A stretch of 64,000 nt of DNA. It comes from a virus. The stretch's first letter is position 1. Each line of letters starts with the position of its first letter. This document shows positions 29,303 through 53,595 of the stretch, piece after piece. The stretch covers positions 33,030 through 97,029 of the IMG/VR virus record IMGVR_UViG_3300042892_002840; one strand, written 5' to 3'. The position numbers and the translations under genes are program-made. A model generated the notes under the pieces. That model did not search any database and had not been told where the DNA came from. It saw nothing but the letters and a program-made list of their open reading frames with translations.

Positions 29303-29324
29303 TGTCAGACCCCCATGTTAAGAT
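29303..29324 (+). promoter_or_regulatory. TGTCAG-type phage promoter 1
   Basis: TGTCAG (29303-29308), ten bases, then TAAGAT at 29319-29324, a weak -10. AACGAAAGG leads to the gene at 29360. Confidence 0.6.
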
Positions 29325-29359
29325 TTATATATAAAGAAAAACAAACGAAAGGGGTCAAT

Positions 29360-29515
29360 ATGACTCAACTAACCGAACAACTGTTCAGCACTATCGTGCA
29401 TGACTTCCACAATGGTGGAGTAAAGTCCTCATATGGTTTAGATACCTACACACGCAAGGAAGTCCTTGCCTACCTTATCCGCTCTAAGGGTTGTGAGTGT
29501 ATCAACTGCCTGTGA
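29360..29515 (+). CDS. Small protein with C-terminal Cys pair
   Basis: 51 aa from ATG 29360, following AACGAAAGGGG. A helical N-terminus is followed by RKEVLAYLIRSKGCECINC, three Cys at the end. The frame is open upstream but the conserved ribosome binding site fixes the start. Its stop overlaps a Crp-type operator. Confidence 0.7.
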   Translation: MTQLTEQLFSTIVHDFHNGGVKSSYGLDTYTRKEVLAYLIRSKGCECINCL

Positions 29516-29526
29516 GGTATCTCACA
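29511..29526. promoter_or_regulatory. Crp/GlxR-type operator, perfect
   Basis: TGTGA-N6-TCACA overlapping the stop codon of the gene before. Its centre lies 52.5 bp before TACAAT at 29571. Confidence 0.8.
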
Positions 29527-29554
29527 CGACACGACCCCCTAACCTCCCCCTATT

Positions 29555-29576
29555 TGTCCTACCTATCCGCTACAAT
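29555..29576 (+). promoter_or_regulatory. TGTCAG-type phage promoter 2 (variant)
   Basis: TGTCCT (29555-29560), ten bases, TACAAT (29571-29576), then ACGAAAG before the ATG at 29610. Confidence 0.65.
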
Positions 29577-29609
29577 TACAACATAACGAACTAACGAAAG
29601 AAGAAAAAC

Positions 29610-29789
29610 ATGTCCTACGCTTACTCATACGAAACTAACTCTATCTCTAAGTGGGATACAATTCAGGAAGATGTTGCAGACGCTTACTCTTACCTAGATG
29701 AAGAAACCGAACAACCACCCGTTGATGATTTTAATGATGAAGATGATGAACAACTAGCCAAACTATTCGCACTAACATGGGAGAACTAA
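29610..29789 (+). CDS. Small acidic protein
   Basis: 59 aa, Asp/Glu-rich in its second half (DDFNDEDDEQL), starting after AACGAAAGAAG. It overlaps the alternative 29777 start of the next frame. The function is unknown. Confidence 0.7.
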   Translation: MSYAYSYETNSISKWDTIQEDVADAYSYLDEETEQPPVDDFNDEDDEQLAKLFALTWEN

Positions 29790-29791
29790 TC

Positions 29792-29959
29792 ATGACTATC
29801 ACTTACTCAATTTGGCAAGGTGGGCGCTTGCTTTCTATCGACAACATGGCAAAAGATGTAAAGGAAATCGATACACTAATTAAAACGCTAAACGATAGCG
29901 ACCTAGGAAAACGCACTAAGTTTTCCGCTAACATAATGACTCTAAAGGCTGGTGAATAA
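29792..29959 (+). CDS. Small conserved phage protein
   Basis: 55 aa from ATG 29792 (MTITYSIWQGGRLL). An in-frame ATG at 29777 would overlap the previous gene; 29792 leaves a 2-bp gap. The IDTLIKTLNDSD helix is its main feature. The stop overlaps the next ATG (TAATG). Confidence 0.65.
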   Translation: MTITYSIWQGGRLLSIDNMAKDVKEIDTLIKTLNDSDLGKRTKFSANIMTLKAGE

Positions 29960-30051
29960 TGATAACTCTACAATGTCGCACATGCGACGAAGATGTGTCT
30001 AGCATGTGGCTAGATGAAGATGATGTAGTTACATGTGAGGGGTGTTGGTAA
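29959..30051 (+). CDS. 30-aa zinc-ribbon microprotein
   Basis: A C-x2-C (QCRTC) and a second C-x2-C (CEGC) frame a short acidic loop. It is joined to both neighbours by TAATG overlaps. Comparable tiny ribbons are common in actinophages. Confidence 0.6.
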   Translation: MITLQCRTCDEDVSSMWLDEDDVVTCEGCW

Positions 30052-30155
30052 TGACTAGACTACTAACCACTATCGTGCAATTAGGTATTGCTATTCCCGC
30101 CCTAATCATGTTGCGCCTTGTAATTAAAGACCTTAGAGAGAATGGATTAAATTAA
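30051..30155 (+). CDS. 34-aa membrane peptide
   Basis: A single hydrophobic helix (TIVQLGIAIPALIMLRLVI) with a charged tail. TAATG overlap upstream and adjacency downstream support translation. Confidence 0.55.
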   Translation: MTRLLTTIVQLGIAIPALIMLRLVIKDLRENGLN

Positions 30156-30326
30156 ATGATAACTAGAAAACACTACATAGCCACCGCCGACATACTTGCA
30201 TCTTATAAAGATTTAATCGGAGACGAATTTACTTTCCATGATCTAGTTGATGAATTTGCGGGCATGTTCGCAGAAGATAACCCCGCATTCGATGCGGATA
30301 AATTTATAACCGCTTGCAATAAATAA
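30156..30326 (+). CDS. Small actinophage protein, RKxY family
   Basis: 56 aa, paralogous to 31468-31653. Both have TRKxYxxTAxIL, an F..(L/I)V(D/N)xFAxMFAxDNPxFD block and a short C-terminus. I recall this small family from many actinophages; its function is unknown. It is the last gene of this operon, before a hairpin cluster. Confidence 0.75.
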   Translation: MITRKHYIATADILASYKDLIGDEFTFHDLVDEFAGMFAEDNPAFDADKFITACNK

Positions 30327-30337
30327 AAATAAATAAC

Positions 30338-30454
30338 GGCGTGTCGGCTTGACAAAATCAAGCTGGCCCGCAAAGGCACGGGGTCGGGCGTGTCGTTACG
30401 GCATTGTTATAAAACCCCTGAAAATTTACGGCGTGTCGATTTGACAGACAAATC
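30338..30454 (+). repeat. GGCGTGTCG elements with hairpins
   Basis: Three copies of GGCGTGTCG (30338, 30387, 30430). The first is followed by GCTTGA/TCAAGC and the third by GATTTG/CAAATC stem-loops. Further copies are at 31937 and 33102. The stems differ in sequence but keep pairing, which suggests RNA structure at operon ends. Confidence 0.5.
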
Positions 30455-30465
30455 GGACATTTGCA

Positions 30466-30481
30466 TGTGACCTTTATCACA
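30466..30481. promoter_or_regulatory. Crp/GlxR-type operator, perfect
   Basis: TGTGA-N6-TCACA. Centre 73.5 bp before TATAAT at 30547. Confidence 0.8.
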
Positions 30482-30530
30482 TGACTTGAGCGTCTCACAT
30501 CATGGACTTACTGGCTAGTAGGTAGATAAA

Positions 30531-30552
30531 TGTCAGTCCCCTAATGTATAAT
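30531..30552 (+). promoter_or_regulatory. TGTCAG-type phage promoter 3
   Basis: TGTCAG (30531-30536), ten bases, TATAAT (30547-30552), with ACGAAAGAAGG before the ATG at 30586. Confidence 0.75.
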
Positions 30553-30585
30553 GTCTACTATAACAACAACGAAAGAAGGTCACTC

Positions 30586-30702
30586 ATGAACCTAGATGAA
30601 TTCAAGGCGCACATCACCGCCACCCGTCAAGCAAGCAAGGCAGAAGCCTTGTCAGTGCTATCTGCTACAATTACCAAATCAACAACGAAAGAAGGCAACT
30701 AA
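30586..30702 (+). CDS. 38-aa protein containing an internal promoter
   Basis: A helical peptide (MNLDEFKAHITATRQ...). Its last third, including ALSVLSATITK, is coded by the TGTCAG promoter and ribosome binding site of the next gene. The stop overlaps the next ATG (TAATG). It may be an authentic peptide or a leader that couples translation. Confidence 0.55.
   Translation: MNLDEFKAHITATRQASKAEALSVLSATITKSTTKEGN
30650..30671 (+). promoter_or_regulatory. TGTCAG-type promoter 4, inside a CDS
   Basis: TGTCAG (30650-30655), ten bases, TACAAT (30666-30671), then AACGAAAGAAGG before ATG 30702. No Crp-type site was found upstream. Confidence 0.7.
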
Positions 30703-30902
30703 TGTCAGCAAATGTCTATACTGTAGAAAGTCTCCTAGTGGGAAAAATGTATTACTCAAATTCTGTAAAGGGAGAAATTATCTCCGCAGAAAAAAATGAT
30801 GATGTCTGGTATTCCGACTCAGACACTTACAAGGTGCAGGTGCGCCCTCTAAATTCTTTTAAGGATACTTACCGCTATGTAGCGGTGAAGGTCGGTGACT
30901 AA
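30702..30902 (+). CDS. Small beta-rich protein
   Basis: 66 aa (MSANVYTVESLL...), with alternating hydrophobic strands and a C-terminal TYRYVAVKVGD. Supported by the conserved AACGAAAGAAGG and TAATG junctions on both sides. A frame at 30596-30799 in another phase is a shadow. Confidence 0.75.
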   Translation: MSANVYTVESLLVGKMYYSNSVKGEIISAEKNDDVWYSDSDTYKVQVRPLNSFKDTYRYVAVKVGD

Positions 30903-31066
30903 TGACTTTAACAATTTACAAAACTGAATTTTATGAAATCATAGACGAGCAACACTTTTGCTGTGATGAAAGTCAGTTTAAATATTATTGCTTAGAACAC
31001 TCAGAATTTATGGGTTGCTATTTTTGCGGATTTGACTACGAAAAGAATTGCGAGGAACAACACTAA
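30902..31066 (+). CDS. Small Cys/His-rich protein
   Basis: 54 aa with CC, a C-x-x-EH and CYFCGFDYEKNC, probably a zinc finger. TAATG overlaps link it to both neighbours. Confidence 0.65.
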   Translation: MTLTIYKTEFYEIIDEQHFCCDESQFKYYCLEHSEFMGCYFCGFDYEKNCEEQH

Positions 31067-31209
31067 TGGGATACATCGAAATTTTTCGCCTTGATGATGA
31101 GGGTGCTGGCTGGGTTGATTTATCCGAGGCTACTCCTGATGAATTATTTAACATAGAACTAGGCTTGCTTAATGAGGGAGCCTTGTTCGATACCCCAGAA
31201 GCAATTTAA
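31066..31209 (+). CDS. 47-aa acidic protein
   Basis: MGYIEIFRLDDEGAGWVDLS and an acidic helical tail. The last gene of the unit that starts at 30531. Confidence 0.6.
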   Translation: MGYIEIFRLDDEGAGWVDLSEATPDELFNIELGLLNEGALFDTPEAI

Positions 31210-31211
31210 TT

Positions 31212-31233
31212 TGTCAGACCCCTCTGCTACAAT
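31212..31233 (+). promoter_or_regulatory. TGTCAG-type phage promoter 5
   Basis: TGTCAG (31212-31217), ten bases ending TGC, TACAAT (31228-31233); AACGAAAGGG precedes ATG 31265. Confidence 0.75.
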
Positions 31234-31264
31234 ACTCTAAACAAACAAACGAAAGGGAAAACCT

Positions 31265-31471
31265 ATGTATCAAATATCTGTTTCATACGATAGCAAGCCT
31301 ATCCATTTTAACAAGAACTATGCAGACGCACTAGAGGCGTTCACCGAATTTAATAAGTTCACCGACTGGGGCTGGGCTAATGAATACGCCACAGTTAATT
31401 TGCAAATGCCAACAGGCAAAATGTATACACGCATTTTTTATCGTGAAGGTCGAAAGGTCGTAACAAAATGA
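31265..31471 (+). CDS. Small protein of unknown function
   Basis: 68 aa (MYQISVSYDSKPIHFNKN...), beta-alpha-beta pattern, C-terminal basic. Overlaps the next gene by 4 bp (ATGA). Confidence 0.75.
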   Translation: MYQISVSYDSKPIHFNKNYADALEAFTEFNKFTDWGWANEYATVNLQMPTGKMYTRIFYREGRKVVTK

Positions 31472-31653
31472 TGACTCGTAAAGATTATGTTTCAACCGCA
31501 GAAATTCTAAAGTATGCAAGCGATAAAACGCACCCCGCTTTATTTTCTAAAATCGTAAATGATTTTGCTGAAATGTTTGCGAAAGATAATCCGCGTTTTG
31601 ATGTTGTGCGATTTCACGAAGCAAGTAATTACAAAGTAAAGGTGGGAAAATAA
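31468..31653 (+). CDS. Small actinophage protein, RKxY family (second copy)
   Basis: 61 aa, paralogue of 30156-30326, sharing TRKDYVSTAEIL and FAEMFAKDNPRFD. The ATG at 31471 is an alternative start. The function is unknown. Confidence 0.75.
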   Translation: MMTRKDYVSTAEILKYASDKTHPALFSKIVNDFAEMFAKDNPRFDVVRFHEASNYKVKVGK

Positions 31654-31758
31654 ATGCAACTAGTTGAAATGTTTGTGTGTGATAGTTGTGAGGATTTTGG
31701 TGCGGTCTACATTGAAGGAGATGTGTTAAGTGTTAAGAAATGCAAATGTGTTGAATAG
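31654..31758 (+). CDS. 34-aa zinc-ribbon microprotein
   Basis: VCDSC near residue 8 and CKC near the end could bind one metal. It begins directly after the preceding stop. Confidence 0.6.
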   Translation: MQLVEMFVCDSCEDFGAVYIEGDVLSVKKCKCVE

Positions 31759-31861
31759 AATTAAGCGTGTTCAGGAGTTGCGGAGATCAAATGCCGCAAC
31801 CCCTGTTCGCAATAAGAAAAAATACACACGCAAGCGCAAGCATAAAAATTCAGAGCTTTGA
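31748..31861 (+). CDS. Small Arg/Lys-rich protein, non-ATG start
   Basis: 37 aa from GTG 31748: LNRIKRVQELRRSNAATP, then a lysine-rich tail. I recall similar tiny basic proteins from other actinophages. The start is uncertain: GTG 31748 and TTG 31751 overlap the previous stop region, and GTG 31730 has AGGAG 9 bp upstream. The frame is closed further upstream by TAA at 31727. Likely nucleic-acid binding by composition only. Confidence 0.55.
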   Translation: MLNRIKRVQELRRSNAATPVRNKKKYTRKRKHKNSEL

Positions 31862-31873
31862 ATATTTATGCAG

Positions 31874-31893
31874 GCCCCCTCTTTTGTGGGGGC
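31874..31893 (+). terminator. GC-rich hairpin
   Basis: GCCCCC (31874-31879) pairs with GGGGGC (31888-31893) over an 8-nt loop at the end of an operon. There is no proper T-run. Confidence 0.5.
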
Positions 31894-31897
31894 TTGA

Positions 31898-31913
31898 TGT
31901 GAATTACGACACA
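31898..31913. promoter_or_regulatory. Crp/GlxR-type operator, one mismatch
   Basis: TGTGA-N6-ACACA. Centre 65.5 bp before TAT-ACT at 31971, slightly off the 10-bp ladder. Confidence 0.5.
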
Positions 31914-31954
31914 TTTTAAAAACGCCTGAAAATTTGGGCGTGTCGATTAGTAAA

Positions 31955-31976
31955 TGTCAGTCCATTCTGCTATACT
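31955..31976 (+). promoter_or_regulatory. TGTCAG-type phage promoter 6
   Basis: TGTCAG (31955-31960), ten bases ending TGC, TATACT (31971-31976); AACGAAAGAGG precedes ATG 32006. Confidence 0.75.
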
Positions 31977-32005
31977 TGCCATTCAACCAACGAAAGAGGT
32001 CCATC

Positions 32006-32209
32006 ATGGAACTATTTACAGTATCTTGCTTAAACTATGAAATTTGTGGCGACCAAGCAACCTTTGATTCCGTTGAGGAATATGAAATTTATGGCGATGA
32101 CTATATGTGTGCAGAATGCTACGATTCTGAAGAAATGTCATTCTTTGGCTGGGATATGGATAGCGATGCTCTTGCCTCTGCTGGCCATGGAATGGATGAG
32201 GATTACTAA
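32006..32209 (+). CDS. Small acidic Cys-containing protein
   Basis: 67 aa from ATG 32006, set by the AACGAAAGAGG site; the open frame begins at 31934, inside the promoter. C-x4-C-like pairs (SCLNYEIC, CAEC) may bind zinc. Very acidic C-terminus. Confidence 0.75.
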   Translation: MELFTVSCLNYEICGDQATFDSVEEYEIYGDDYMCAECYDSEEMSFFGWDMDSDALASAGHGMDEDY

Positions 32210-32210
32210 T

Positions 32211-32960
32211 ATGTCAGAGGTCCAAGATATAATTACCCCCATGAAACTAAAACGCTCTAATGATAGAAAGGTGGCTAACCTTGTCACAAAAAATGGAAAG
32301 CAAGCCGCAATTGCCAATACATTCGGATTACCTGCAGGAAAGGCTTATTCATGTCCTGGCGCTACGTCTATCTGCGAAAGTGTTTGCTATGCAGGCAAAT
32401 TGGAAAAGCTCTTCCCTGGAGTAAAAACTAATCTATTGCACAACTGGGAATTGCTACGCAATGCCGATATGGAAACTATGTTCTCTCTTCTTAATGAAAT
32501 GATCATAGAATTCAAAAATGACTGCGATAAGAAAGACGCTCCTAAGTTATTCCGTATCCACTGGGACGGAGATTTCTTTAATGATTTCTATACATATGCC
32601 TGGAAGAATGTAATCAATGAGCACACCGATGTTCAATTCTGGGTTTATACACGTGTAAAGTCTGCAGCGCTTATTCTTAAGGATGTATCTAATCTATCTC
32701 TTTACTATTCTACCGACGACGAGAATAAAGAAATAGCATTCGATTTAAAAACTAATTCCAAGGTCCGCCTTGCTTATCTAGGCAAGACATTCGCCTCAAC
32801 CGAAGACACAATGAAAGAATTAACGGGAAAGCCTGGCGCTAAGTGTCCTGAGAATATGAAATCAATTCCACTTATTAGCAATGCAGGGTCCGCATGTGTA
32901 TCTTGTGGCCTATGTGTCTACGGTAAAGCGGATATTAGATTTTCTGCGAGTAAAAAATGA
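32211..32960 (+). CDS. Gp88-like cysteine-rich phage protein
   Basis: 249 aa. N-terminal AIANTFGLPAGKAYSCPGATSIC with ESVCYAG, a central FRIHWDGDFFN block and C-terminal CVSCGLCVYGK. This matches the mycobacteriophage Gp88 family (Pfam GP88), whose Cys pattern suggests a bound metal or Fe-S cluster. Some annotations link such proteins to queuine/deazaguanine transglycosylases; I cannot confirm that. A second possible start, M11 at ATG 32241, follows an internal TGTCAG-type promoter. It overlaps the next gene by 4 bp. Confidence 0.8.
   Translation: MSEVQDIITPMKLKRSNDRKVANLVTKNGKQAAIANTFGLPAGKAYSCPGATSICESVCYAGKLEKLFPGVKTNLLHNWELLRNADMETMFSLLNEMIIEFKNDCDKKDAPKLFRIHWDGDFFNDFYTYAWKNVINEHTDVQFWVYTRVKSAALILKDVSNLSLYYSTDDENKEIAFDLKTNSKVRLAYLGKTFASTEDTMKELTGKPGAKCPENMKSIPLISNAGSACVSCGLCVYGKADIRFSASKK
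32212..32233 (+). promoter_or_regulatory. TGTCAG-type promoter 7, inside a start region
   Basis: TGTCAG (32212-32217) overlaps the ATG of the Gp88-like gene; ten bases, then TATAAT (32228-32233). The next in-frame ATG at 32241 would be leaderless. The match could be coincidental. Confidence 0.45.
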
Positions 32961-33100
32961 TAGATGTAATTGGAGCCGTGATTGCAATTATATTAATTTT
33001 ATTTTTGTGCTCACCAATTGTACTGGCCGTGTACATGTGGAATGCAGCTAAGATAGATATCGATAATGACGGAGTAGAAGATCTCCCTAACCGTTGGTGA
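32957..33100 (+). CDS. 47-aa membrane protein
   Basis: One long hydrophobic helix (VIGAVIAIILILFLCSPIVL) followed by an acidic tail. Coupled by ATGA to the gene before. Confidence 0.65.
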   Translation: MIDVIGAVIAIILILFLCSPIVLAVYMWNAAKIDIDNDGVEDLPNRW

Positions 33101-33101
33101 C

Positions 33102-33128
33102 GGCGTGTCGAGTTGACAATTGTCAGCT
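33102..33128 (+). repeat. GGCGTGTCG element with hairpin
   Basis: GGCGTGTCG (33102-33110) followed by AGTTGACA/TGTCAGCT stem-loop (33111-33128), directly after the operon stop. GGCGTGTCG recurs inverted at 33215-33223. Confidence 0.5.
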
Positions 33129-33196
33129 CGGCCCGCATATGTGAGGGGTTATCCACAGGCTTACGACAGTTATCCACAAGCCCTGAAAATTTGTGA
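33124..33196 (+). repeat. Repeat module with two DnaA boxes, copy 1
   Basis: Shares CAGCTCGGCCC, GAGGGGTTATCCACAG, TTACGA and CCCTGAAA with 34986-35059 in the same order. It holds two perfect TTATCCACA boxes (33149-33157, 33170-33178) and leads into a Crp-type operator. Confidence 0.65.
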
Positions 33197-33207
33197 TTAA
33201 TCTCACA
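33192..33207. promoter_or_regulatory. Crp/GlxR-type operator, perfect
   Basis: TGTGA-N6-TCACA, directly after CCCTGAAAATTT. Centre 57.5 bp before TATAAT at 33257. Confidence 0.8.
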
Positions 33208-33240
33208 AAAGCTGCGACACGCCGATAGCATCCCACAAAA

Positions 33241-33262
33241 TGTCAGTGGCAACCGCTATAAT
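33241..33262 (+). promoter_or_regulatory. TGTCAG-type phage promoter 8
   Basis: TGTCAG (33241-33246), ten bases, TATAAT (33257-33262), with AACGAAAGG before ATG 33292. Confidence 0.8.
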
Positions 33263-33291
33263 ACTCACATACCAACAACGAAAGGCTACAA

Positions 33292-33498
33292 ATGACCAAA
33301 GTAGAACACTCTCTCAAATTCGTTACAGAGTTTGATGAAACACATCCAACCGCTCAACGATTTTTACAATTAGAAGCGGATGCACAAATTGCTATGCTAG
33401 AGTCAATGCTTAAGGACTTGCTAGTAGATGCAATTCAACCAGTAATTGACCACATTAACGAAGGTGGCTCTTACGCAATTCTAAAGGTGGCTAACTAA
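33292..33498 (+). CDS. Small helical protein
   Basis: 68 aa, largely helical and acidic (LQLEADAQIAMLESMLKDLL). The conserved AACGAAAGG sets the start, and TAATG joins it to the next gene. Confidence 0.75.
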   Translation: MTKVEHSLKFVTEFDETHPTAQRFLQLEADAQIAMLESMLKDLLVDAIQPVIDHINEGGSYAILKVAN

Positions 33499-33767
33499 TG
33501 GGATACACGACAGCACTATCTCTTGCAGATGATTTATCATTAGAGGCAGGACTTGCTTATCACTTACAGGGTAATCATTACCCACCCGTTCCCGTCTCTA
33601 TGGTGCAACCTTGCATAGATGCTATTGATGCGTTTTATGATGAGGAGTATAGCCGAGAGATTAATCTACCTGAAGGTATTTCATGGCGTGGGCAGAACTC
33701 TTGCCCTGCGTCTGCAATAGTAGATGCTCACCACTTAGAGGCTTGGCTACCTCAATACGAGGATTAG
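33498..33767 (+). CDS. Small protein of unknown function
   Basis: 89 aa (MGYTTALSLADDLSLE...), C-terminal SWRGQNSCPASAIVDAHHLEAWL. No recognised domain. Confidence 0.75.
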   Translation: MGYTTALSLADDLSLEAGLAYHLQGNHYPPVPVSMVQPCIDAIDAFYDEEYSREINLPEGISWRGQNSCPASAIVDAHHLEAWLPQYED

Positions 33768-33783
33768 GGATCAAAACCAGGCG

Positions 33784-33799
33784 TGTGAGTTTAATCACA
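33784..33799. promoter_or_regulatory. Crp/GlxR-type operator, perfect with extended arms
   Basis: TGTGA-N6-TCACA lies inside an 8-bp-arm inverted repeat, GCGTGTGA with TCACACGC. Centre 62.5 bp before TACAAT at 33854. Confidence 0.82.
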
Positions 33800-33837
33800 C
33801 GCTTGGTATCTCAAATAATAAGATAGGGCTTGATAAA

Positions 33838-33859
33838 TGTCAGACCCAAATGCTACAAT
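33838..33859 (+). promoter_or_regulatory. TGTCAG-type phage promoter 9
   Basis: TGTCAG (33838-33843), ten bases ending TGC, TACAAT (33854-33859). AGAAAAGAGG replaces the usual ACGAAAGG before ATG 33887. Confidence 0.75.
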
Positions 33860-33886
33860 ACTACCCTACACAGAAAAGAGGCAAAA

Positions 33887-34069
33887 ATGACAATAGATAA
33901 TCATCTCTATAAGGTTGGCGATTTATTCACCACCCTAAAGTCAAAAAAGACAGGTGTGATTAAAGAAATCCACCCACAAGCATCTGGCTCGGTGCGTGTG
34001 CTACTGGAAATGCCAACAAAGGAAACTCGTTGGACTTCAGTATCGGCTAAGACCCTTCTAGGCGCATAA
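33887..34069 (+). CDS. Small conserved actinophage protein
   Basis: 60 aa (MTIDNHLYKVGDLFTTLKS..., RVLLEMPTKETRWTSV). The beta-strand pattern resembles a small SH3-like barrel. The start is set by AGAGG at 33877-33881; the open frame begins at 33830 inside the promoter. I recall this family from other actinophages, function unknown. Confidence 0.75.
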   Translation: MTIDNHLYKVGDLFTTLKSKKTGVIKEIHPQASGSVRVLLEMPTKETRWTSVSAKTLLGA

Positions 34070-34074
34070 CCTAG

Positions 34075-34146
34075 AACGAAACAGGGACAGTTTAAGAGAG
34101 TGTTCTCGTCCAATGTCGTAAGTAAGAACTCTCTCCCTTCGGGGAA
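34075..34146 (+). ncRNA. Structured intergenic element A
   Basis: GAGAGTGTTCT pairs with AGAACTCTC around a GTAAGT-containing loop, followed by CTCCCTTCGGGG. A related arrangement recurs at 34628-34702, both ending in CTCTCCCTTCGGGG and both just upstream of a gene. A cis-regulatory RNA or processed terminator is possible. Confidence 0.4.
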
Positions 34147-34147
34147 A

Positions 34148-34169
34148 TGTCAGACCCCCCTGCTATACT
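34148..34169 (+). promoter_or_regulatory. TGTCAG-type phage promoter 10
   Basis: TGTCAG (34148-34153), ten bases ending TGC, TATACT (34164-34169); AACGAAAGG precedes ATG 34205. No Crp-type site upstream. Confidence 0.78.
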
Positions 34170-34204
34170 ATCCATAACAACAACCAACCAACGAAAGGTA
34201 ACAA

Positions 34205-34621
34205 ATGTCCCGTCAAATCACAGTAAAGGTAGCAACAAGCAAAGTAATCAAGGCACTAGAAGGCACTCTTGCTAAACTAGAGAAGGATTACGCTTCACAG
34301 GAAGCAAACGAAGCAAAGTATCAGAAGGCGCAAGAAGCGTGGAAAAAGGAAATTGGAGATTGGGCTATCAAGAACTTCTCTAAGGCAACTAATCTCCGCA
34401 CATCTTATCGCTCTTGGAACAACACTCTCAATGTTGATTTTGACATTGTAACAAAAGAGTCAGCGTTCCCCGTAGAACCTGAAAAGGACTTTGAGGTAAT
34501 TCATCAGCACAGTTATCGTGAGATGAAAGAGGACATTACAAATGCTCTCACTATCTTAAAGATGACAGATGAGGAAACAGTAAATGCTTCTACAATGAAG
34601 CAGATTGCTAAGTATCTCTAA
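34205..34621 (+). CDS. Protein of unknown function
   Basis: 138 aa. Mostly helical with a basic N-terminus (KVATSKVIKALEGTLAKLEKDY) and a central EKEIGDWAIKNFSKATNLRTSYR segment. Possibly nucleic-acid associated by charge, but no domain is recognised. It is the sole gene after promoter 10. Confidence 0.75.
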   Translation: MSRQITVKVATSKVIKALEGTLAKLEKDYASQEANEAKYQKAQEAWKKEIGDWAIKNFSKATNLRTSYRSWNNTLNVDFDIVTKESAFPVEPEKDFEVIHQHSYREMKEDITNALTILKMTDEETVNASTMKQIAKYL

Positions 34622-34627
34622 ATAATT

Positions 34628-34702
34628 TGGGGGGCAGAACTAAAGTCCTGAACCCAAACGACCTGAGTAAGTCGCCAAACTGCTCTCCCTTCGGGGACAA
34701 CT
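34628..34702 (+). ncRNA. Structured intergenic element B
   Basis: Contains GTAAGT in a loop and ends CTCTCCCTTCGGGG, like element A. No TGTCAG promoter occurs between it and the gene at 34721, so that gene may be read through it. Confidence 0.4.
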
Positions 34703-34720
34703 ACTAACAAAGGTAATACA

Positions 34721-34981
34721 ATGGCAAATCGTTTCAGAGTAGAAATCTACGATGCAAACAAACTTAATGACATCACGATTTATTCGGATCAAGGTGTCGA
34801 TAAAGAATATCTAACTGAATTAGTATTCAGTAATATCAGAAACTTTAGCGGAAAAATAAATGCTTATGTTTTTGATAATGTAAAGAAAAAGAAAACAACT
34901 GCAATGTTTCTTGATGAACGCACAGTTGAATTTAATAAAAATATAATTCGGAATGCAACTAAGGTAGAGTTGGGGAGTTAA
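34721..34981 (+). CDS. Small protein of unknown function
   Basis: 86 aa (MANRFRVEIYDANKLN...), alternating strands and helices with a KKKKTT basic turn. An AAAGG site lies before the start. Co-transcribed with 34205 through element B. Confidence 0.7.
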   Translation: MANRFRVEIYDANKLNDITIYSDQGVDKEYLTELVFSNIRNFSGKINAYVFDNVKKKKTTAMFLDERTVEFNKNIIRNATKVELGS

Positions 34982-34985
34982 TCCC

Positions 34986-35059
34986 CAGCTCGGCCCCTGC
35001 TTTTGAGGGGTTATCCACAGCGTTACGATCACCTGTGGAAAACCCTGAAATTTTGTGAG
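34986..35059 (+). repeat. Repeat module with DnaA box, copy 2
   Basis: Second copy of the 33124-33196 module, with one perfect TTATCCACA (35011-35019), an inverted TGTGGA at 35034, and CCCTGAAATTTT leading into a Crp-type site. Confidence 0.65.
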
Positions 35060-35069
35060 ATTACTCACA
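35054..35069. promoter_or_regulatory. Crp/GlxR-type operator, perfect
   Basis: TGTGA-N6-TCACA. Centre 62.5 bp before TATACT at 35124. Confidence 0.82.
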
Positions 35070-35107
35070 TGGATCAATTCGGACATATTTCTAATAAGAT
35101 AGACAAA

Positions 35108-35129
35108 TGTCAGTGGGGTCTGTTATACT
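35108..35129 (+). promoter_or_regulatory. TGTCAG-type phage promoter 11
   Basis: TGTCAG (35108-35113), ten bases ending TGT, TATACT (35124-35129); AACGAAAGG precedes ATG 35163. Confidence 0.8.
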
Positions 35130-35162
35130 TACCAAATCAAACAAACGAAAGGTAAAAAATAT

Positions 35163-36167
35163 ATGGCTCACAATCTCGAAATGGAAAATGGCGAAGTTGC
35201 TTTCGCTCTCCGTGGCGCACCTGCTTGGCACAACCTTGCAAATCGTATCTTCACAAAAGATGAGGAAGTTACAACTGCCTCAATGCTTAGCGAAGCAAAG
35301 TTAGCAAATTGGAATGTTCGTTTATCTCCAATCACTGACCATATCTCAGAATCTTGGAATGATGTATCTAACGCATCTCTTGTGATTCGTGACAACCCAT
35401 TCAATGGTGGAACTGATGTTCTCGCAACTGTTGGCAAGCGTTACAAGCCTGTTCAGAATGAAGAACTATTTGCATTTGCTGATGCAATTCACGATGCCAA
35501 TGCTGATTGCCGTTGGGAATCTGCGGGTTCTCTTAAGAAGGGCAAAGTTGTATTCGGCACTGTAGATATTCCTCGCACAATGGTTCTTGACCCACAAGGC
35601 GCCAATGATGAGACAAAGTTATATCTAATCGTATGGACTTCACACGATGGTTCTGTTGCTGTTCAGGCAGCCGTTACACCTGTTCGTGTTGTATGCCAAA
35701 ACACTCTTAACCTTGCAATGAAGAATGCTAAGCAATCTTTCAAGATTCGCCACACGCAATCTGTTGAAGGTCGTATTCAAGTTGCTCGTGAAACTCTTGG
35801 GCTTGCTCTTGGCTATTTCGATGAATTCGAAACCGAAGCACAAGCACTATTTTCTCAAGCAATTACCGATGCTGAATTTTCTAAGTTGATTCAGACAATT
35901 TATCCAAAGCCAGAAAAAGATGCTAAGGGTGCAATTAAAAAGTGGGAGAACAAAGTTGTTCTGCTTGATGATTTGTATCATAACTCGCCGACTAACGCTA
36001 ATATCAAGGGAACAAAGTGGGGCGCATTCAATGCGCTTACTGAGCGCCTTGATTACTATCGTTCAGGTCGTGGCAATGGTGAAACTCTTATGGCGGGTGC
36101 ATCAGGATTTGACCCTGTTCTAACTGCTGAGAAAAACAAAATCAAGAAATTGGTTTCTGCTTTCTAA
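35163..36167 (+). CDS. DUF932 phage/plasmid-like protein
   Basis: 334 aa with the hallmark openings AWHNLANRIF, SLVIRDNPFNGG...LATVGKRYKPVQNEE, and the VQAAVTPVRVVCQNTLNLA and RHTQSVEGRI blocks of the TIGR03299/DUF932 family. This family is widespread in phages and plasmids. It is often placed near recombination or replication genes, but its biochemical role is unproven. It is a monocistronic unit behind the Crp-plus-TGTCAG cassette. Confidence 0.9.
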   Translation: MAHNLEMENGEVAFALRGAPAWHNLANRIFTKDEEVTTASMLSEAKLANWNVRLSPITDHISESWNDVSNASLVIRDNPFNGGTDVLATVGKRYKPVQNEELFAFADAIHDANADCRWESAGSLKKGKVVFGTVDIPRTMVLDPQGANDETKLYLIVWTSHDGSVAVQAAVTPVRVVCQNTLNLAMKNAKQSFKIRHTQSVEGRIQVARETLGLALGYFDEFETEAQALFSQAITDAEFSKLIQTIYPKPEKDAKGAIKKWENKVVLLDDLYHNSPTNANIKGTKWGAFNALTERLDYYRSGRGNGETLMAGASGFDPVLTAEKNKIKKLVSAF

Positions 36168-36209
36168 ATAAAAAAAATCCTGAGCAAGATTTAAAACTGC
36201 TCACCATTA

Positions 36210-36283
36210 GGTCCATTAGCTCAGTTGGTTAGAGCGCTACCCTGTCACGGTAGAGGTCGACGGTTCAAGTCCGTTATGGATCG
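36210..36283 (+). tRNA. tRNA-Asp (GUC)
   Basis: A 74-nt cloverleaf with acceptor GGTCCAT paired to ATGGATC (one G-U pair), a D-loop with GGTTAGAGC and anticodon loop CTGTCAC. It is the only tRNA on the plus strand and lies at the end of the DUF932 unit. Confidence 0.95.
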
Positions 36284-36339
36284 CAAATAATATTTATGCA
36301 TTTCATTGTATAAATATGCACTGCCCCCAATACTGAGGG

Positions 36340-36355
36340 TGTGATTCTTATCATA
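36340..36355. promoter_or_regulatory. Crp/GlxR-type operator, one mismatch
   Basis: TGTGA-N6-TCATA. Centre 61.5 bp before TATAAT at 36409. Confidence 0.6.
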
Positions 36356-36392
36356 CGAGGATCATAAAAAATCCCTGAAAATATCTTCCATT

Positions 36393-36414
36393 TGTCAGTG
36401 GTAAGCGCTATAAT
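36393..36414 (+). promoter_or_regulatory. TGTCAG-type phage promoter 12
   Basis: TGTCAG (36393-36398), ten bases, TATAAT (36409-36414), with AACGAAAGG before ATG 36440. CCCTGAAAATAT lies 20 bp upstream. Confidence 0.8.
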
Positions 36415-36439
36415 ACTCCTATACAACGAAAGGAATACA

Positions 36440-36874
36440 ATGGACCGCAGAGAATCAAGAAGCAACGGATATATTGGAACAATTGTAGATGGCGAAAAGC
36501 TTGCTGAAATTGCAAATGGAATTTACAACCTGCAGTACAGTAGCGACTTCTCTAAATGTACAGTAGATTCATTACTGTTTATTGAACTAGAAGAGAAGAA
36601 TGTTTACGGGGACCCTAAATATGCCTTGGTATGCTCAGAGGGTGTTGGATGGGAGCAGGACACATATGGTTGCCTAGAAGTTCCGACCAACATTGGTCAA
36701 ATGGGACTATGGAATGGAAGAGTATTTATTTCAGTAGACACTGTTAAAGCTTGTTTGACTGATCGTACAGAAGACATTGCAGATTACATTAGAATCTTTG
36801 GGGACCGCCTTGACCGCAACTGCTACTTGTGGCAGTCAAAAATGTCAGTGGTACCTGCTACAATACTCGCATGA
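36440..36874 (+). CDS. Protein of unknown function ending in the next promoter
   Basis: 144 aa from ATG 36440; the open frame begins at 36392 inside the promoter and is not used. Mixed alpha/beta with GEKLAEIANGIYNLQYS and an EGVGWEQDTYG loop. Its last 11 codons (SVVPATILA) are the TGTCAG promoter of the next gene, so coding and promoter sequence are superimposed. Confidence 0.75.
   Translation: MDRRESRSNGYIGTIVDGEKLAEIANGIYNLQYSSDFSKCTVDSLLFIELEEKNVYGDPKYALVCSEGVGWEQDTYGCLEVPTNIGQMGLWNGRVFISVDTVKACLTDRTEDIADYIRIFGDRLDRNCYLWQSKMSVVPATILA
36843..36864 (+). promoter_or_regulatory. TGTCAG-type promoter 13, inside a CDS
   Basis: TGTCAG (36843-36848), ten bases ending TGC, TACAAT (36859-36864). 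The ATG at 36871 is six bases after the -10, the position of a leaderless start. Confidence 0.72.
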
Positions 36875-37536
36875 CCAACGCACTAGTATCAAGTAAGTAT
36901 ACATTTGCCTGCGACCCAGATGAATGTGATGTCTTAATTGAATTAACTTCATCAGACGGGTTTGGATTCCCGTCGGGTGTGGTACAAATCACATGTCCAT
37001 GTGGCCGTAAGCCAATCTTATTGTCAGTGGAGCATGCTACAATTGCACCTTCAACAACAACGAAAGAGGATAAAATGGAAACAACAACAATCGGTTCAGA
37101 TGCATTCCACTCACCTGCAGTAGAATACAATCCTGATTTACTAGTTACATATAAAGTAATCAAGGGTTACTCTGACCCTGAATTTACAACATCAAAGGTA
37201 ACAAGTCTTGAGTGGGACCTACATAATGGTCGTCAATCTCAAAAGCGTGTAGGTCTTCTTGAATCAAACATCAATACAGTTAAAAATATAATCTCTGAGG
37301 CATATGCTGATTCAGATGACCAAGATACACTTCGTTCAATTGCTGAAGCGCTTAGCATTGAACTAACACGAACTGTAGAATTTACTGCAACTATCGAGGT
37401 TAGCGGAACAATTGACCTTAACCTTCTTGAGGACTATGACTTTGAAACAGAAATCACAGACAATCTTTATGTTGATTCACAGAGTGGCAACATTGAGATT
37501 GGCGATACTGAAATCTGTTATGTGAGGGAAGCATAA
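36871..37536 (+). CDS. Zinc-ribbon protein fused in frame to a downstream gene product
   Basis: 221 aa from ATG 36871. The first 65 residues (FACDPDECD, ITCPCGRK) form a Cys-rich module known to me from actinophages as a separate small protein. The frame continues without a stop into the protein starting at ATG 37075, which has its own promoter and ribosome binding site. Two products, a 221-aa leaderless form and a 153-aa form, are therefore expected. The second part is acidic with a VEFTATIEVSGTIDL strand region. Confidence 0.7.
   Translation: MTNALVSSKYTFACDPDECDVLIELTSSDGFGFPSGVVQITCPCGRKPILLSVEHATIAPSTTTKEDKMETTTIGSDAFHSPAVEYNPDLLVTYKVIKGYSDPEFTTSKVTSLEWDLHNGRQSQKRVGLLESNINTVKNIISEAYADSDDQDTLRSIAEALSIELTRTVEFTATIEVSGTIDLNLLEDYDFETEITDNLYVDSQSGNIEIGDTEICYVREA
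36978..36993. promoter_or_regulatory. Crp/GlxR-type operator, one mismatch, inside a CDS
   Basis: TGTGG-N6-TCACA. Centre 52.5 bp before TACAAT at 37038, exactly on the 10-bp ladder of the other sites although it lies in coding sequence. Confidence 0.6.
37022..37043 (+). promoter_or_regulatory. TGTCAG-type promoter 14, inside a CDS
   Basis: TGTCAG (37022-37027), ten bases ending TGC, TACAAT (37038-37043); AACGAAAGAGG precedes ATG 37075. Confidence 0.78.
37075..37536 (+). CDS. Protein of unknown function (internal start)
   Basis: 153 aa. It starts at ATG 37075 with AACGAAAGAGG in front and shares its frame with the longer product from 36871. Features are DLLVTYKVIKGYSDPEF and a VGLLESNINTVKNIISEAY helix. 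This internal start is better supported than the upstream one. Confidence 0.8.
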   Translation: METTTIGSDAFHSPAVEYNPDLLVTYKVIKGYSDPEFTTSKVTSLEWDLHNGRQSQKRVGLLESNINTVKNIISEAYADSDDQDTLRSIAEALSIELTRTVEFTATIEVSGTIDLNLLEDYDFETEITDNLYVDSQSGNIEIGDTEICYVREA

Positions 37537-37748
37537 TGTATTTTGAATTAACTGCTCCATCTCAAGTGGCCTTTGCGAGGGCCACTTGGGAAGCGGAGAT
37601 GATTGGGCTGGACCCAATGACAATTGCACCGTTGACTTTCAACATCGGAACTGGTAGTATTGAGAAAGTATCACGGATTCGTGATAAGTATAATCTAGTA
37701 GAGAGTTATACATCAGACTACGAGCCAACAGGTTACACAGGGAGATAA
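37536..37748 (+). CDS. Small protein of unknown function
   Basis: 70 aa (MYFELTAPSQVAFARATW...). TAATG overlap with the preceding gene. No motif. Confidence 0.75.
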   Translation: MYFELTAPSQVAFARATWEAEMIGLDPMTIAPLTFNIGTGSIEKVSRIRDKYNLVESYTSDYEPTGYTGR

Positions 37749-37749
37749 T

Positions 37750-37896
37750 ATGTCAGACTACAAAGATGGTTTTCAAGATGGATATAAGTTTGCTCGTGAG
37801 GAACTTATGGAAAGACTTGCTGAGATTGATATCGCTGATATCGATTCTTGGATTCTTGACCGTCTTTCAGAGATGATCGAAGGTAACCAACTTTGA
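37750..37896 (+). CDS. 48-aa acidic helical protein
   Basis: MSDYKDGFQDGYKFAREELM, helical throughout. Its stop overlaps the next ATG (TGATG). Confidence 0.7.
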   Translation: MSDYKDGFQDGYKFAREELMERLAEIDIADIDSWILDRLSEMIEGNQL

Positions 37897-38072
37897 TGGC
37901 TGAATGGCTTAAGTGTGACCAATGTGCGGCGCAAGCAATGTGGGAAGCAAAGAAAGACACAATGTCTCTTTATTTTTGCGGACACCATAAAAATGAACAG
38001 GGCGAGCCACTTGTGGACTGGGCCCAAGAAATGATACAATTACTCAACTACGAAAAAGAAATGGCGGAATAA
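37896..38072 (+). CDS. DUF7455-like zinc protein
   Basis: 58 aa with CDQCAAQA and FCGHHKNE, a C-x2-C...C-x2-H site matching the DUF7455 pattern found in actinobacteria and their phages. Function unknown. Confidence 0.75.
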   Translation: MAEWLKCDQCAAQAMWEAKKDTMSLYFCGHHKNEQGEPLVDWAQEMIQLLNYEKEMAE

Positions 38073-38074
38073 AA

Positions 38075-38443
38075 ATGGGCGACAGAGCAAACTTTGGTTT
38101 CAGAGATTCCAAGGAAGACATCATCTTTCTATACGGGCACTGGGCTGGACATCGAATGCTAGAAAATTTAGCGGATGCTGTACAGGCTGCAGAGCCACGC
38201 TGGAATGATGAATCATATGCAACACGTATAGCAATTAGCAGACTCATTGGCGATGAATGGACCAGCGAAACTGGATGGGGCATTAGCGTAAATGCATTAG
38301 CAGATAATGAGCACAAGGTACCTATCATCGATTGGAAGAATAAAACATTCACTCTAATGGAAGAGGACCTTGTCACTGAAGTATTTACCATGGACCTTCA
38401 AAAGTTCGTGGCCAAGTATTCTAGTCAACTCGTTATGGTATAA
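38075..38443 (+). CDS. Conserved actinophage protein
   Basis: 122 aa (MGDRANFGFRD..., FLYGHWAGHRM). I recall close relatives in other actinophages, annotated only as hypothetical. Its stop codon lies inside a TATAAT box that may start the RNA at 38450. Confidence 0.75.
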   Translation: MGDRANFGFRDSKEDIIFLYGHWAGHRMLENLADAVQAAEPRWNDESYATRIAISRLIGDEWTSETGWGISVNALADNEHKVPIIDWKNKTFTLMEEDLVTEVFTMDLQKFVAKYSSQLVMV

Positions 38444-38444
38444 T
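38439..38444 (+). promoter_or_regulatory. Extended -10 promoter
   Basis: TGG-TATAAT (the hexamer at 38439-38444) without a clear -35, just before the candidate RNA. Confidence 0.45.
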
Positions 38445-38449
38445 TATAC

Positions 38450-38600
38450 TAGGACTTTGGTCCTGGTTTTAATAGGAAATGAAATGGTGCATCTATTAGT
38501 CTGCGGGCCAGGTGCTAAGTAAAGCGGTTTATTTCTTTCGTTGGAAATCAGCAGCCATATTCATAACCCCTCCAGCTTGATCTGGAGGGGTTTCTATTTT
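38450..38600 (+). ncRNA. Candidate ~150-nt structured RNA with terminator
   Basis: It begins with an AGGAC/GTCCT hairpin and ends at a strong intrinsic terminator. A 12-codon frame (MVHLLVCGPGAK, ATG 38484) preceded by AGGAAATG is the only coding candidate. It may be an sRNA, or a leader with a short peptide. Confidence 0.45.
38565..38600 (+). terminator. Strong intrinsic terminator
   Basis: AACCCCTCCAG (38565-38575) pairs perfectly with CTGGAGGGGTT (38582-38592), followed by TCTATTTT. Confidence 0.85.
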
Positions 38601-38691
38601 GCCCACAAAAGATATGAGGGTAGCATATGTCTTTTACGAGTGTCAAGTAAATTCCCTGAAAATTTCACAATATGAGACGAGATTTGATCAA

Positions 38692-38707
38692 TGTGGTGTG
38701 ATTCACA
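38692..38707. promoter_or_regulatory. Crp/GlxR-type operator, one mismatch
   Basis: TGTGG-N6-TCACA. Centre 42.5 bp before TATAAT at 38742. Confidence 0.6.
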
Positions 38708-38725
38708 CACCAAAAGGATTCCATT

Positions 38726-38747
38726 TGTCAGTGCCCTAGTATATAAT
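38726..38747 (+). promoter_or_regulatory. TGTCAG-type phage promoter 15
   Basis: TGTCAG (38726-38731), ten bases, TATAAT (38742-38747), with AACGAAAGG before ATG 38775. Confidence 0.8.
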
Positions 38748-38774
38748 TATCACATATCAACGAAAGGATATAAT

Positions 38775-39551
38775 ATGCCAAACTGGGTGTATAACACATT
38801 AACTATCCAAGGACCTAAGTCTGAGGTAGATATGATTAAAGATAGATTGAATAAGCCTTTTACATTAGCACAAGAGACTTATGGTATGGGTGATATTTCA
38901 TCTATGGGTTTCCCCACCAAATTTGAGCAGGTAAGTTATTCTAATCCTGTCTTTGCTTTCTTCAACATTCATTCATATAAGGATGACGGCATTACTGATG
39001 AGGAATATGCTTGCCAGCCTTCTCGTGGAGATATAGATATGAAGAATGACCCTGATTGGTTCCGCAAATCTGTTGAGTTTGCTAAGACTCAAAAGGATTG
39101 GTATTCATGGAACAACTCTAATTGGGGAACTAAATGGGATGTTGCTGTTCGTGATGGTGATGAATATCCAAATACAGAACTACTTGAATATAAGTCTGAA
39201 GGTGATGACAATTGGGTTGTCTACAAATATGAAACTGCTTGGTCACCTGCTGTAACTATTCTAACTAAACTAAGTAATCTTGTTCCGAACTGCCTGCTCA
39301 CATTAGAGTATGAAGAAGAGACAGGTTGGGGTGGGGAATATGAGATTGTCCGTGGTGATGTAAAAGAATTGGCTGAATGGGAGAATCGTTGCTATGCATG
39401 CCAGTCTTTTGACACAATGAGTTATTGTGAAGATGACTGCGGTGAATTCTGCTCAGAATGTGGTCAAGGCTCTTGGCAAGATGAAGAGGCAATGAAGAAA
39501 TGTCAGACCCATAGTGTATTATTGGAATCTACAGAAAAGGCGGAAGCATAA
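38775..39551 (+). CDS. DUF1281/YubB ferredoxin-like-fold protein with Cys-rich tail
   Basis: 258 aa from ATG 38775. The start MPNWVYNTLTIQGPKSEV and a WNNSNWGTKWD block are typical of the phage/plasmid DUF1281 (ferredoxin-like) family. A C-terminal CYACQSFD...CEDDCGEFCSECG cluster looks like an added zinc-binding tail. The open frame from 38691 lies in the promoter and is not used. The function is unknown. Confidence 0.82.
   Translation: MPNWVYNTLTIQGPKSEVDMIKDRLNKPFTLAQETYGMGDISSMGFPTKFEQVSYSNPVFAFFNIHSYKDDGITDEEYACQPSRGDIDMKNDPDWFRKSVEFAKTQKDWYSWNNSNWGTKWDVAVRDGDEYPNTELLEYKSEGDDNWVVYKYETAWSPAVTILTKLSNLVPNCLLTLEYEEETGWGGEYEIVRGDVKELAEWENRCYACQSFDTMSYCEDDCGEFCSECGQGSWQDEEAMKKCQTHSVLLESTEKAEA
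39501..39522 (+). promoter_or_regulatory. TGTCAG-type promoter 16, inside a CDS
   Basis: TGTCAG (39501-39506), ten bases, TATTAT (39517-39522), within the last codons of the gene before, for the gene at 39551. No ACGAAAGG follows, only GGCGG. Confidence 0.5.
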
Positions 39552-39766
39552 TGGCTGAACTATTTATAGATACATTAGCAGAGCACATTACAGGTGCTAT
39601 GCAACAAGAAATTGGTGAAGCGCTATTTGACCAATGGTCTTATAATAATTTAGAGGAAGGAGAGGCATATGCTGAATTTAGATTTATGGAATATGCTTCT
39701 CGTGAATTAAAGCAACAATATAACGAATACTATGGCTATATTGAGGGAGATGAGTTTCTACTATGA
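39551..39766 (+). CDS. Small acidic protein
   Basis: 71 aa, helical and acidic (MAELFIDTLAEHITGAMQQ...). TAATG overlap at its start, ATGA at its end. Confidence 0.75.
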   Translation: MAELFIDTLAEHITGAMQQEIGEALFDQWSYNNLEEGEAYAEFRFMEYASRELKQQYNEYYGYIEGDEFLL

Positions 39767-39930
39767 TGTTAGGTTATACACAAAGAGATTTAGCAGATAT
39801 GACCTATGGGGTCTATCAAGCTGACCTGCTGGTCAATGCTGACGAGAATCCTGCAATTCATAATTATCTAGTAATGGCTCATGATTTCTTACAGGGCCTA
39901 TGGGCAGAAGGGTATTTTGATCATGCATAA
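39763..39930 (+). CDS. Small protein of unknown function
   Basis: 55 aa (MMLGYTQRDLADMTYG...). Helical. Coupled by ATGA to the gene before; overlaps the next by 8 bp. Confidence 0.65.
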   Translation: MMLGYTQRDLADMTYGVYQADLLVNADENPAIHNYLVMAHDFLQGLWAEGYFDHA

Positions 39931-40039
39931 ACATCATTGGGAATGCACAGATACACCAGGAGTATTTATGTGCCATGCAGAGGGAACTACTGGATACTTC
40001 AATAGTTTAACTAAAGAGATTGTAGTAGATAATGACTAA
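39923..40039 (+). CDS. 38-aa His/Cys peptide
   Basis: MHKHHWECTDTPGVFMCHAEG, with His and Cys spaced for metal binding. It overlaps both neighbours by 8 bp. Confidence 0.55.
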   Translation: MHKHHWECTDTPGVFMCHAEGTTGYFNSLTKEIVVDND

Positions 40040-40223
40040 ATCATCTTATTTCCTAGAGTATATGAAGTTACATGAGATTAGTTTAATGCAAGACCTAGAG
40101 AAGATTGATTATGTAAATGAACATCACTTCTACAGGTGCAAGGAAGCAGAAATTTACAATACCAGGCATTTGTTGTCAGTGGCTACTGATATAATGAATT
40201 CCTCTAACGAAAGGTATGAATAA
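40032..40223 (+). CDS. Small helical protein ending in a promoter
   Basis: 63 aa. The last 16 residues (LLSVATDIMNSSNERYE) are coded by the TGTCAG promoter and AACGAAAGG of the next gene. TAATG overlap downstream. Confidence 0.65.
   Translation: MTKSSYFLEYMKLHEISLMQDLEKIDYVNEHHFYRCKEAEIYNTRHLLSVATDIMNSSNERYE
40174..40195 (+). promoter_or_regulatory. TGTCAG-type promoter 17, inside a CDS
   Basis: TGTCAG (40174-40179), ten bases, TATAAT (40190-40195); AACGAAAGG precedes ATG 40223. No Crp-type site was found upstream. Confidence 0.72.
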
Positions 40224-49148: not shown

Positions 49149-49354
49149 TCTCCCTTTAACTCCTCCGCTGCTGCATTAAACTTATTCATAAATGTTTGAA
49201 TAACAAATAATGTAGTCTCGTGTGCATTCTTTGACATAGCGCTGAATGCTTGTTGGTTTCTTTCATCTTCAGGTAGTGCAGATGACCATTTTGTGTAAAG
49301 ATCTTCTGCTACCTCTCCAATAATTTCTTCCATTACTGTTTGCTGATTACCCAT
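49145..49354 (-). CDS. Small helical protein
   Basis: 69 aa, amphipathic (LFVIQTFMNKFNAAAEELKGE). Coupled to thioredoxin and overlapping the protease upstream by 8 bp. Confidence 0.7.
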   Translation of the reverse strand: MGNQQTVMEEIIGEVAEDLYTKWSSALPEDERNQQAFSAMSKNAHETTLFVIQTFMNKFNAAAEELKGE

Positions 49355-53294: not shown

Positions 53295-53595
53295 GTTTTT
53301 CCTTTATCTGCTTCCAAACATCTTTTGTTTTATGTGCATTTCTTGATTTGTCTGGTAATCCTGCGCTTAAATAAACTCCGCCCCAAACACCGTAATCGCT
53401 ATTAAACTTTCCTTCATCATGACAAATTTTAATTACTGGGCATGACAGACATGCCTGATCAATATTTTTTGCAATATTGATATCGGATTCATATTTATCA
53501 AAAAAGAGATTGGTGTCCATGCCAAGGCATAGAGCAAGGTCATACCAGCTAGCGTTATCTTTATCTATTCCTAGACTATTTAAAATATCTGACAT
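53284..53595 (-). CDS. whiB: WhiB-family transcription factor
   Basis: 103 aa if read from ATG 53595; ATG 53661 and GTG 53700 are in-frame alternatives. C23, C49, C52 and C58 (ALC, CLSCPVIKIC) bind a 4Fe-4S cluster, and GVWGG at 69-73 is the WhiB turn. WhiB proteins pair with the primary sigma factor, a host-typical actinobacterial control device also carried by phages. It may reprogramme host transcription. Confidence 0.9.
   Translation of the reverse strand: MSDILNSLGIDKDNASWYDLALCLGMDTNLFFDKYESDINIAKNIDQACLSCPVIKICHDEGKFNSDYGVWGGVYLSAGLPDKSRNAHKTKDVWKQIKEKHVY

Follow-up and report, generated by a model that had tools for sequence, protein, structure and literature searches.

A nested in-frame gene in a probable actinophage group, with its promoter, a Crp-like site and its Shine-Dalgarno sequence written in the codons of the outer gene

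The window, that is, the whole stretch of DNA that was analysed, comprises 64,000 nucleotides (positions 33,030 to 97,029) of the 97,029-bp IMG/VR virus record IMGVR_UViG_3300042892_002840. At about 29–41 kb it contains a rightward block of many small genes, in which each gene or each few genes have their own promoter. The following features of the block, all on the plus strand, are considered here.

29303 to 40195, plus strand: array of 16–17 promoters of the form TGTCAG-N10-TAnnnT, most of them intergenic, nine with a Crp-like site 34–65 bp upstream
30650 to 30671, plus strand: promoter inside a 38-aa gene (about 30587–30703), frame LSVLSATI
36393 to 36414, plus strand: intergenic promoter of the 144-aa gene, with a Crp-like site at 36340–36355
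36440 to 36874, plus strand: upstream gene of 144 aa without a family match, whose 3' end contains P36843
36843 to 36864, plus strand: P36843, the promoter of the outer gene, a motif match
36871 to 37536, plus strand: outer (long) gene of 221 aa, an open frame with an N-terminal CX4C...CXC ribbon, a disordered linker and a C-terminal domain
36978 to 36993, plus strand: Crp/GlxR-like site TGTGGTACAAATCACA, with one mismatch to TGTGA-N6-TCACA, within the codons of the ribbon and 44 bp 5' of the inner promoter
37022 to 37043, plus strand: P37022, the inner promoter TGTCAGTGGAGCATGCTACAAT, coding LSVEHATI, with invariant TTG, TCA, GCT and ACA codons
37062 to 37069, plus strand: Shine-Dalgarno sequence GAAAGAGG of the inner gene, coding part of TKED (codons ACG in 70/71 and AAA in 70/70)
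37075 to 37536, plus strand: inner (short) gene of 153 aa, in the outer frame, with its own Shine-Dalgarno sequence; its ATG encodes the nearly invariant M69
39501 to 39522, plus strand: promoter with a TATTAT -10, inside gene 38775–39551
40174 to 40195, plus strand: promoter inside gene 40032–40223, frame LSVATDIM

The contig is most likely an actinophage. This assignment is based on a WhiB gene (about 53374–53547, minus strand; 38.7 bits, above the cut-off) and on a DUF932 protein that shares about 52% identity with its counterpart in Streptomyces Stanwilliamsviridae. Judging by its sequence, the contig is distantly related to this family; in Samistivirus, for example Jay2Jay, a small-gene array also lies near the DUF932 gene. 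In the Stanwilliamsviridae stretches that were examined, unlike in this phage, the TGTCAG array is absent and Crp-like sites are nearly absent. The phage group is uncultured and probably infects Actinobacteria. All relatives used here are IMG/VR contigs, and since they share common ancestry, the counts of loci given below are not counts of independent events. The nested protein has no matches among isolated phage records. A search for the host by means of the promoter pattern in genomes gave only chance matches, in Firmicutes and one archaeon. The window also encodes a subtilase-family protease (49347–50462, minus strand) and a PA14-domain protein (54701–57091, minus strand), both with a signal-peptide-like N-terminus and both unusual cargo for a tailed phage.

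The promoters of the block are of one type. The motif TGTCAG-N10-TAYnnT occurs 16 times on the plus strand of the window and never on the minus strand, almost exclusively at this spacing. With up to one mismatch to TGTCAGTG-N8-TAnnnT we found 11 sites against 1.67 expected, and none of 100 shuffles reached 11. The TAYAAT form is present in 648 copies at spacing 10 in 80 relative loci, other spacings being close to zero. The base composition of 677 distinct sites is marked by A/T ahead of the box, TG just 5' of the -10 (an extended -10), TAYAAT and an A/C-rich leader; no -35 hexamer is conserved across these sites. The TGTCAG box continues as TGG/TGC in 331 of them, about half, and as ACC/TCC/CCC in 265, about 40%. 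The strict motif TTGTCAGTGGN7TAYAATACT was found in 57 viral contigs, every one of them a relative of this phage group. In three Samistivirus genomes TGTCAG-N10-TAYnnT is not enriched. The idea that Jay2Jay shares TGTC-N12-TAnnnT was dropped: by eye, its promoters look like TTGnnn-N17/18-TAGACT.

Many of these promoters are accompanied by a Crp-like palindrome. TGTGA-N6-TCACA, the Crp/GlxR consensus (PMC7999487, PMC5449483), has six copies in the window, at spacing 6 only, and five of the six lie just upstream of array promoters. Among the relatives, a site with no more than one mismatch lies within 250 bp of 432 of 670 promoters. Raw counts are pseudo-replicated by orthologous promoters, so distances were counted once per downstream gene family. 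It turned out that in 27 of 31 families the modal distance from the site to the TGTC box is 33–35, 43–45, 53–55, 63–65 or 73–75 bp (binomial p of about 6e-11 if distances were uniform). Such periodicity of one helical turn points to an activator that contacts RNA polymerase along a single face of the DNA helix, and the Crp-like sites would then be its binding sites. Class I activation by Crp/GlxR (PMC7999487, PMC5449483) uses the same palindrome at helically phased upstream positions; the centres of the phage sites are at about -54, -64, -74 and -84 from the inferred start. The phage differs in that its contig has no Crp gene, the sites are paired with a -26 box, and one site lies inside coding sequence.

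This last site belongs to the nested gene. A sequence-only reading of the window had proposed that a leaderless Zn-ribbon frame starts at 36871 and runs without a stop into the gene at 37075. The frame is indeed open for 221 codons, from ATG 36871 to 37536, with ATG 37075 in frame. The first ATG follows the -10 of P36843 by 6 nt in the window, and by 6–7 nt in 80 of the 84 relatives with a visible upstream promoter. Thus the mRNA should be leaderless or nearly so.

The same reading would fail if relatives had stop codons between the two parts. In 91 of the 92 unique relatives with ribbon and promoter, the ribbon frame is open and in frame into the inner gene, and the distance from the inner -10 to the start takes only the values 25, 28, 31, 34, 37, 40 and 43 nt, which differ from one another by multiples of three. 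For comparison, the leaders of other array promoters are open and in frame in 6–15%, depending on the frame. To guard against the bias of selecting relatives with the fused query, searches were also run with the ribbon only and with the C-terminal part only. The C-terminal queries returned 76 ribbon-bearing loci, all open and in frame, and two ribbonless loci (L078 and L079), both closed by stops in the leader. At one locus (L103) a different gene comes after the ribbon, and the ribbon frame ends in a stop of its own; this is the sole ribbon-bearing exception. No stops occur at loci that have both the outer part and its partner. The codon-position entropy of the ribbon is 0.55/0.56/1.09, the third position having twice the value of the first two, and for this reason we regard the ribbon as real coding sequence. 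Taken together, a frame that is kept in relatives and closed when the ribbon or its partner is missing, and a ribbon of coding type, argue for selection on the long reading. The variants L103 and L078/L079 suggest gene turnover at this spot; in L078/L079 the C-terminal gene without a ribbon lies downstream of an apparent tRNA region.

The DNA of the inner promoter region is conserved as well. The codons of L-S-V-x-x-A-T are TTG in 64/64, TCA in 81/81, GTG in 73/79, GCT in 80/80 and ACA in 79/79 (81 sequences dereplicated at 95% nucleotide identity; each codon counted where its residue is retained). This uniformity follows in part from the search pattern by which promoters were located, but that pattern excluded only 3 of 95 loci for want of a promoter. 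The nested -10 is TACAAT in 42 of 44. The Crp-type site that had been noticed in the coding sequence is present at 36978–36993, and its codons are GGT in 67/69, GTG in 71/72 and CTC in 49/53. In 83 of 92 relatives a copy with no more than one mismatch lies exactly 44 bp upstream of the promoter, and 60 copies are perfect. Of 69 alignment columns with at least fourfold degeneracy, 11 show the strongest synonymous constraint, and nine of these 11 are Crp-site, promoter or Shine-Dalgarno codons. In all loci that have the ribbon, P37022 lies inside a gene. The synonymous constraint and the fixed 44-bp spacing indicate that the regulatory reading is also under selection. Alignment of the relatives thus finds both the frame and the promoter conserved, and the inner promoter is conserved at the level of DNA, not merely as a peptide.

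Promoters at 30650, 36843, 37022, 39501 and 40174 had been described as lying within translated frames, and all five are present, each read through by the upstream frame. Four of them do give similar peptides (ALSVLSATI at 30650, MSVVPATI at 36843, LLSVEHATI at 37022 and LLSVATDIM at 40174), as the sequence-only reading had it. However, (L)SVxxATI is no independent protein motif: the peptide is the promoter read in one frame, and P39501, read in another frame, gives KCQTHSVLL. The burial itself differs between promoters. P36843 lies inside the upstream gene in the window, yet in just 24 of 84 relatives, so its burial is incidental. P40174 is intragenic in 36 of 37 relatives, in the same frame, and P39501 in 36 of 36. 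TATAAT is the commonest -10 in the array outside P39501, but at P39501 it occurs in none of the 36 relatives (TATTAT in 19, TATACT in 12). TATAAT there would write an in-frame TAA into gene 38775–39551, and its avoidance indicates that coding and regulation are superimposed. The broader claim of such superimposition is thus borne out at the level of sequence by the open frame, the constraint on promoter DNA and this avoidance.

In the long protein, C14, C19, C42 and C44, two cysteine pairs, are nearly invariant. The Zn_ribbon_8 profile matches one of 45 members weakly (9e-4) and the window protein not at all. Neither profile nor structure searches matched the nested protein to a family or fold, and the structure search gave no significant match. 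AlphaFold (AF2) predicts, at an overall pTM of only 0.36, a ribbon-like part at residues 5–58 and, towards the C-terminus, a part containing a long helix at 110–144; these two are better defined than the low-confidence linker at 57–81 that separates them. The linker is the stretch that encodes the promoter end, the leader and the Shine-Dalgarno sequence. So, in this model, regulation would displace coding where the protein tolerates it. The C-terminal domain can exist by itself, as L078/L079 show.

We consider it highly probable that this is a nested in-frame phage gene with two products, in which P37022, the Crp-type site and the Shine-Dalgarno sequence are written in the outer codons and selection keeps both readings. 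One frame would then probably make both a long and a short protein. P36843 would give a near-leaderless transcript for the 221-aa protein, composed of a Zn-ribbon-like domain, a flexible linker and the C-terminal domain, and P37022 would give a Shine-Dalgarno-led mRNA for the 153-aa protein, which is the C-terminal domain without the ribbon. Through the common C-terminal helical domain, the short form could modulate the long form or share its partners. If VirF21 (PMC5101355) is a guide, the short form may temper the long one.

It is possible to suppose that only the 221-aa protein is made, and that the inner promoter, the Crp-like site and the inner ATG are relics of a separate gene fused to a ribbon gene. 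The ribbon (in L103) and the C-terminal gene (in L078/L079) do exist apart, which gives the arrangement the look of two fused genes. But relics should decay, whereas the embedded regulatory codons are the most constrained synonymous positions of the gene, the 44-bp spacing is fixed and the internal methionine is nearly invariant; we consider this explanation unlikely. It is very unlikely that only the short protein matters and that the ribbon is an expendable leader read in frame by accident. Leader codons 3' of the -10 do lack three-base periodicity, and A/C-rich leaders are often open in the other frames too (59/91 and 67/91), as such an accident would have it; against this stand the in-frame openness in 91 of 92 relatives compared with 6–15% in other leaders, linker lengths that vary by multiples of three only, the coding-type constraint on the ribbon, and the closing of the frame when the ribbon or its partner is missing. 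Loci that have lost the ribbon or the partner serve as natural controls, and they allow selection on the frame and selection on the regulatory DNA to be read separately.

Who reads the promoters is a separate matter. Transcription would use host sigma-A polymerase, a Crp/GlxR-type activator and a further protein bound to the -26 TGTCAG box; for the latter, the DNA-damage activator PafBC is a plausible candidate. The RecA-NDp consensus is tTGTCRgtg-8 nt-TannnT (PMC5656591), and the array promoters carry its TGTCR core 12 nt before TAnnnT. PafBC, when bound to single-stranded DNA, reads the -26 motif together with sigma-A (PMC11804915), and such promoters extend to other Actinobacteria (PMC8223512). 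The phage array resembles RecA-NDp/PafBC promoters (PMC5656591, PMC8223512, PMC11804915) in the core, the -10 spacing, the -26 position and the absence of a conserved -35 hexamer. It differs in that about 40% of boxes have ACC/TCC/CCC in place of TGG/TGC, the genes served are phage genes rather than repair genes, and Crp-like sites are added. PafBC as the candidate reader is a lead, not a result. The contig has neither a WYL protein gene nor a Crp HTH gene, so the activators should be host factors or unrelated phage proteins. We tentatively suggest that the small-gene block, including the nested promoter, may be wired to two host activators, PafBC at -26 and a cAMP/Crp-type protein upstream. 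If so, infection or replication-borne single-stranded DNA would activate the block and alter the proportion of long to short product.

MotA of T4 is an activator encoded by the phage itself. That the reader of the -26 box is likewise an activator from the phage's own genome, and not host PafBC, is a serious possibility, though short of probable, and it leaves the dual-coding argument unaffected. It would fit the restriction of the strict motif to 57 contigs of this group, the TTGnnn-N17/18-TAGACT-type promoters that the Streptomyces relatives appear by eye to use, TGTCAG-N10-TAYnnT not being enriched there, and the clear departure of about 40% of boxes from TGTCRGTG. On the side of PafBC are its binding to the -26 motif with SigA (PMC11804915) and the match of position, spacing and core to the consensus (PMC5656591); no candidate phage activator was found.

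A close comparison for the nested gene is VirF30/VirF21 (PMC5101355), where likewise two proteins share one frame, a promoter within the gene gives rise to the short form and a leaderless mRNA is involved. In VirF it is the short form that is leaderless, whereas in the phage the long form would be near-leaderless and the inner gene has a Shine-Dalgarno sequence; in the phage, moreover, the outer gene contains the activator site too, and relatives across the group have kept the arrangement. The in-frame Rep proteins of plasmid pIGRK are reported to be likewise two proteins of one gene, with antagonistic functions (PMC6854812), but this is a plasmid replication gene and the protein is unrelated. 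Nested in-frame genes are usually isolated cases; this one has been kept in about ninety diverged variants. Gene callers that list one 221-aa gene here would overlook a product if both are made. The surrounding array also offers a testable prediction of the use of host activators by uncultured actinophages.

Several other elements lie in the block. The repeat CCTGAAAWTT is intergenic, on the plus strand, at 30417, 31925, 33182, 35044, 38655, 41827 and 41884, often just 5' of Crp-like sites (10 bp in several families). The DnaA-box-like TTATCCACA is clustered in intergenic stretches at 33149, 33170, 35011, 41737 and 41749. Three copies of CGTGTCGnnTTGACA stand ahead of array promoters at 30340, 30432 and 33104 and are possibly a second type of promoter or operator. 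At the GP88-family gene (32241; region 32212–32960) the promoter ends 7 nt before the ATG, so that it is near-leaderless, and the same 7-nt distance is found in 17 of 26 relatives.
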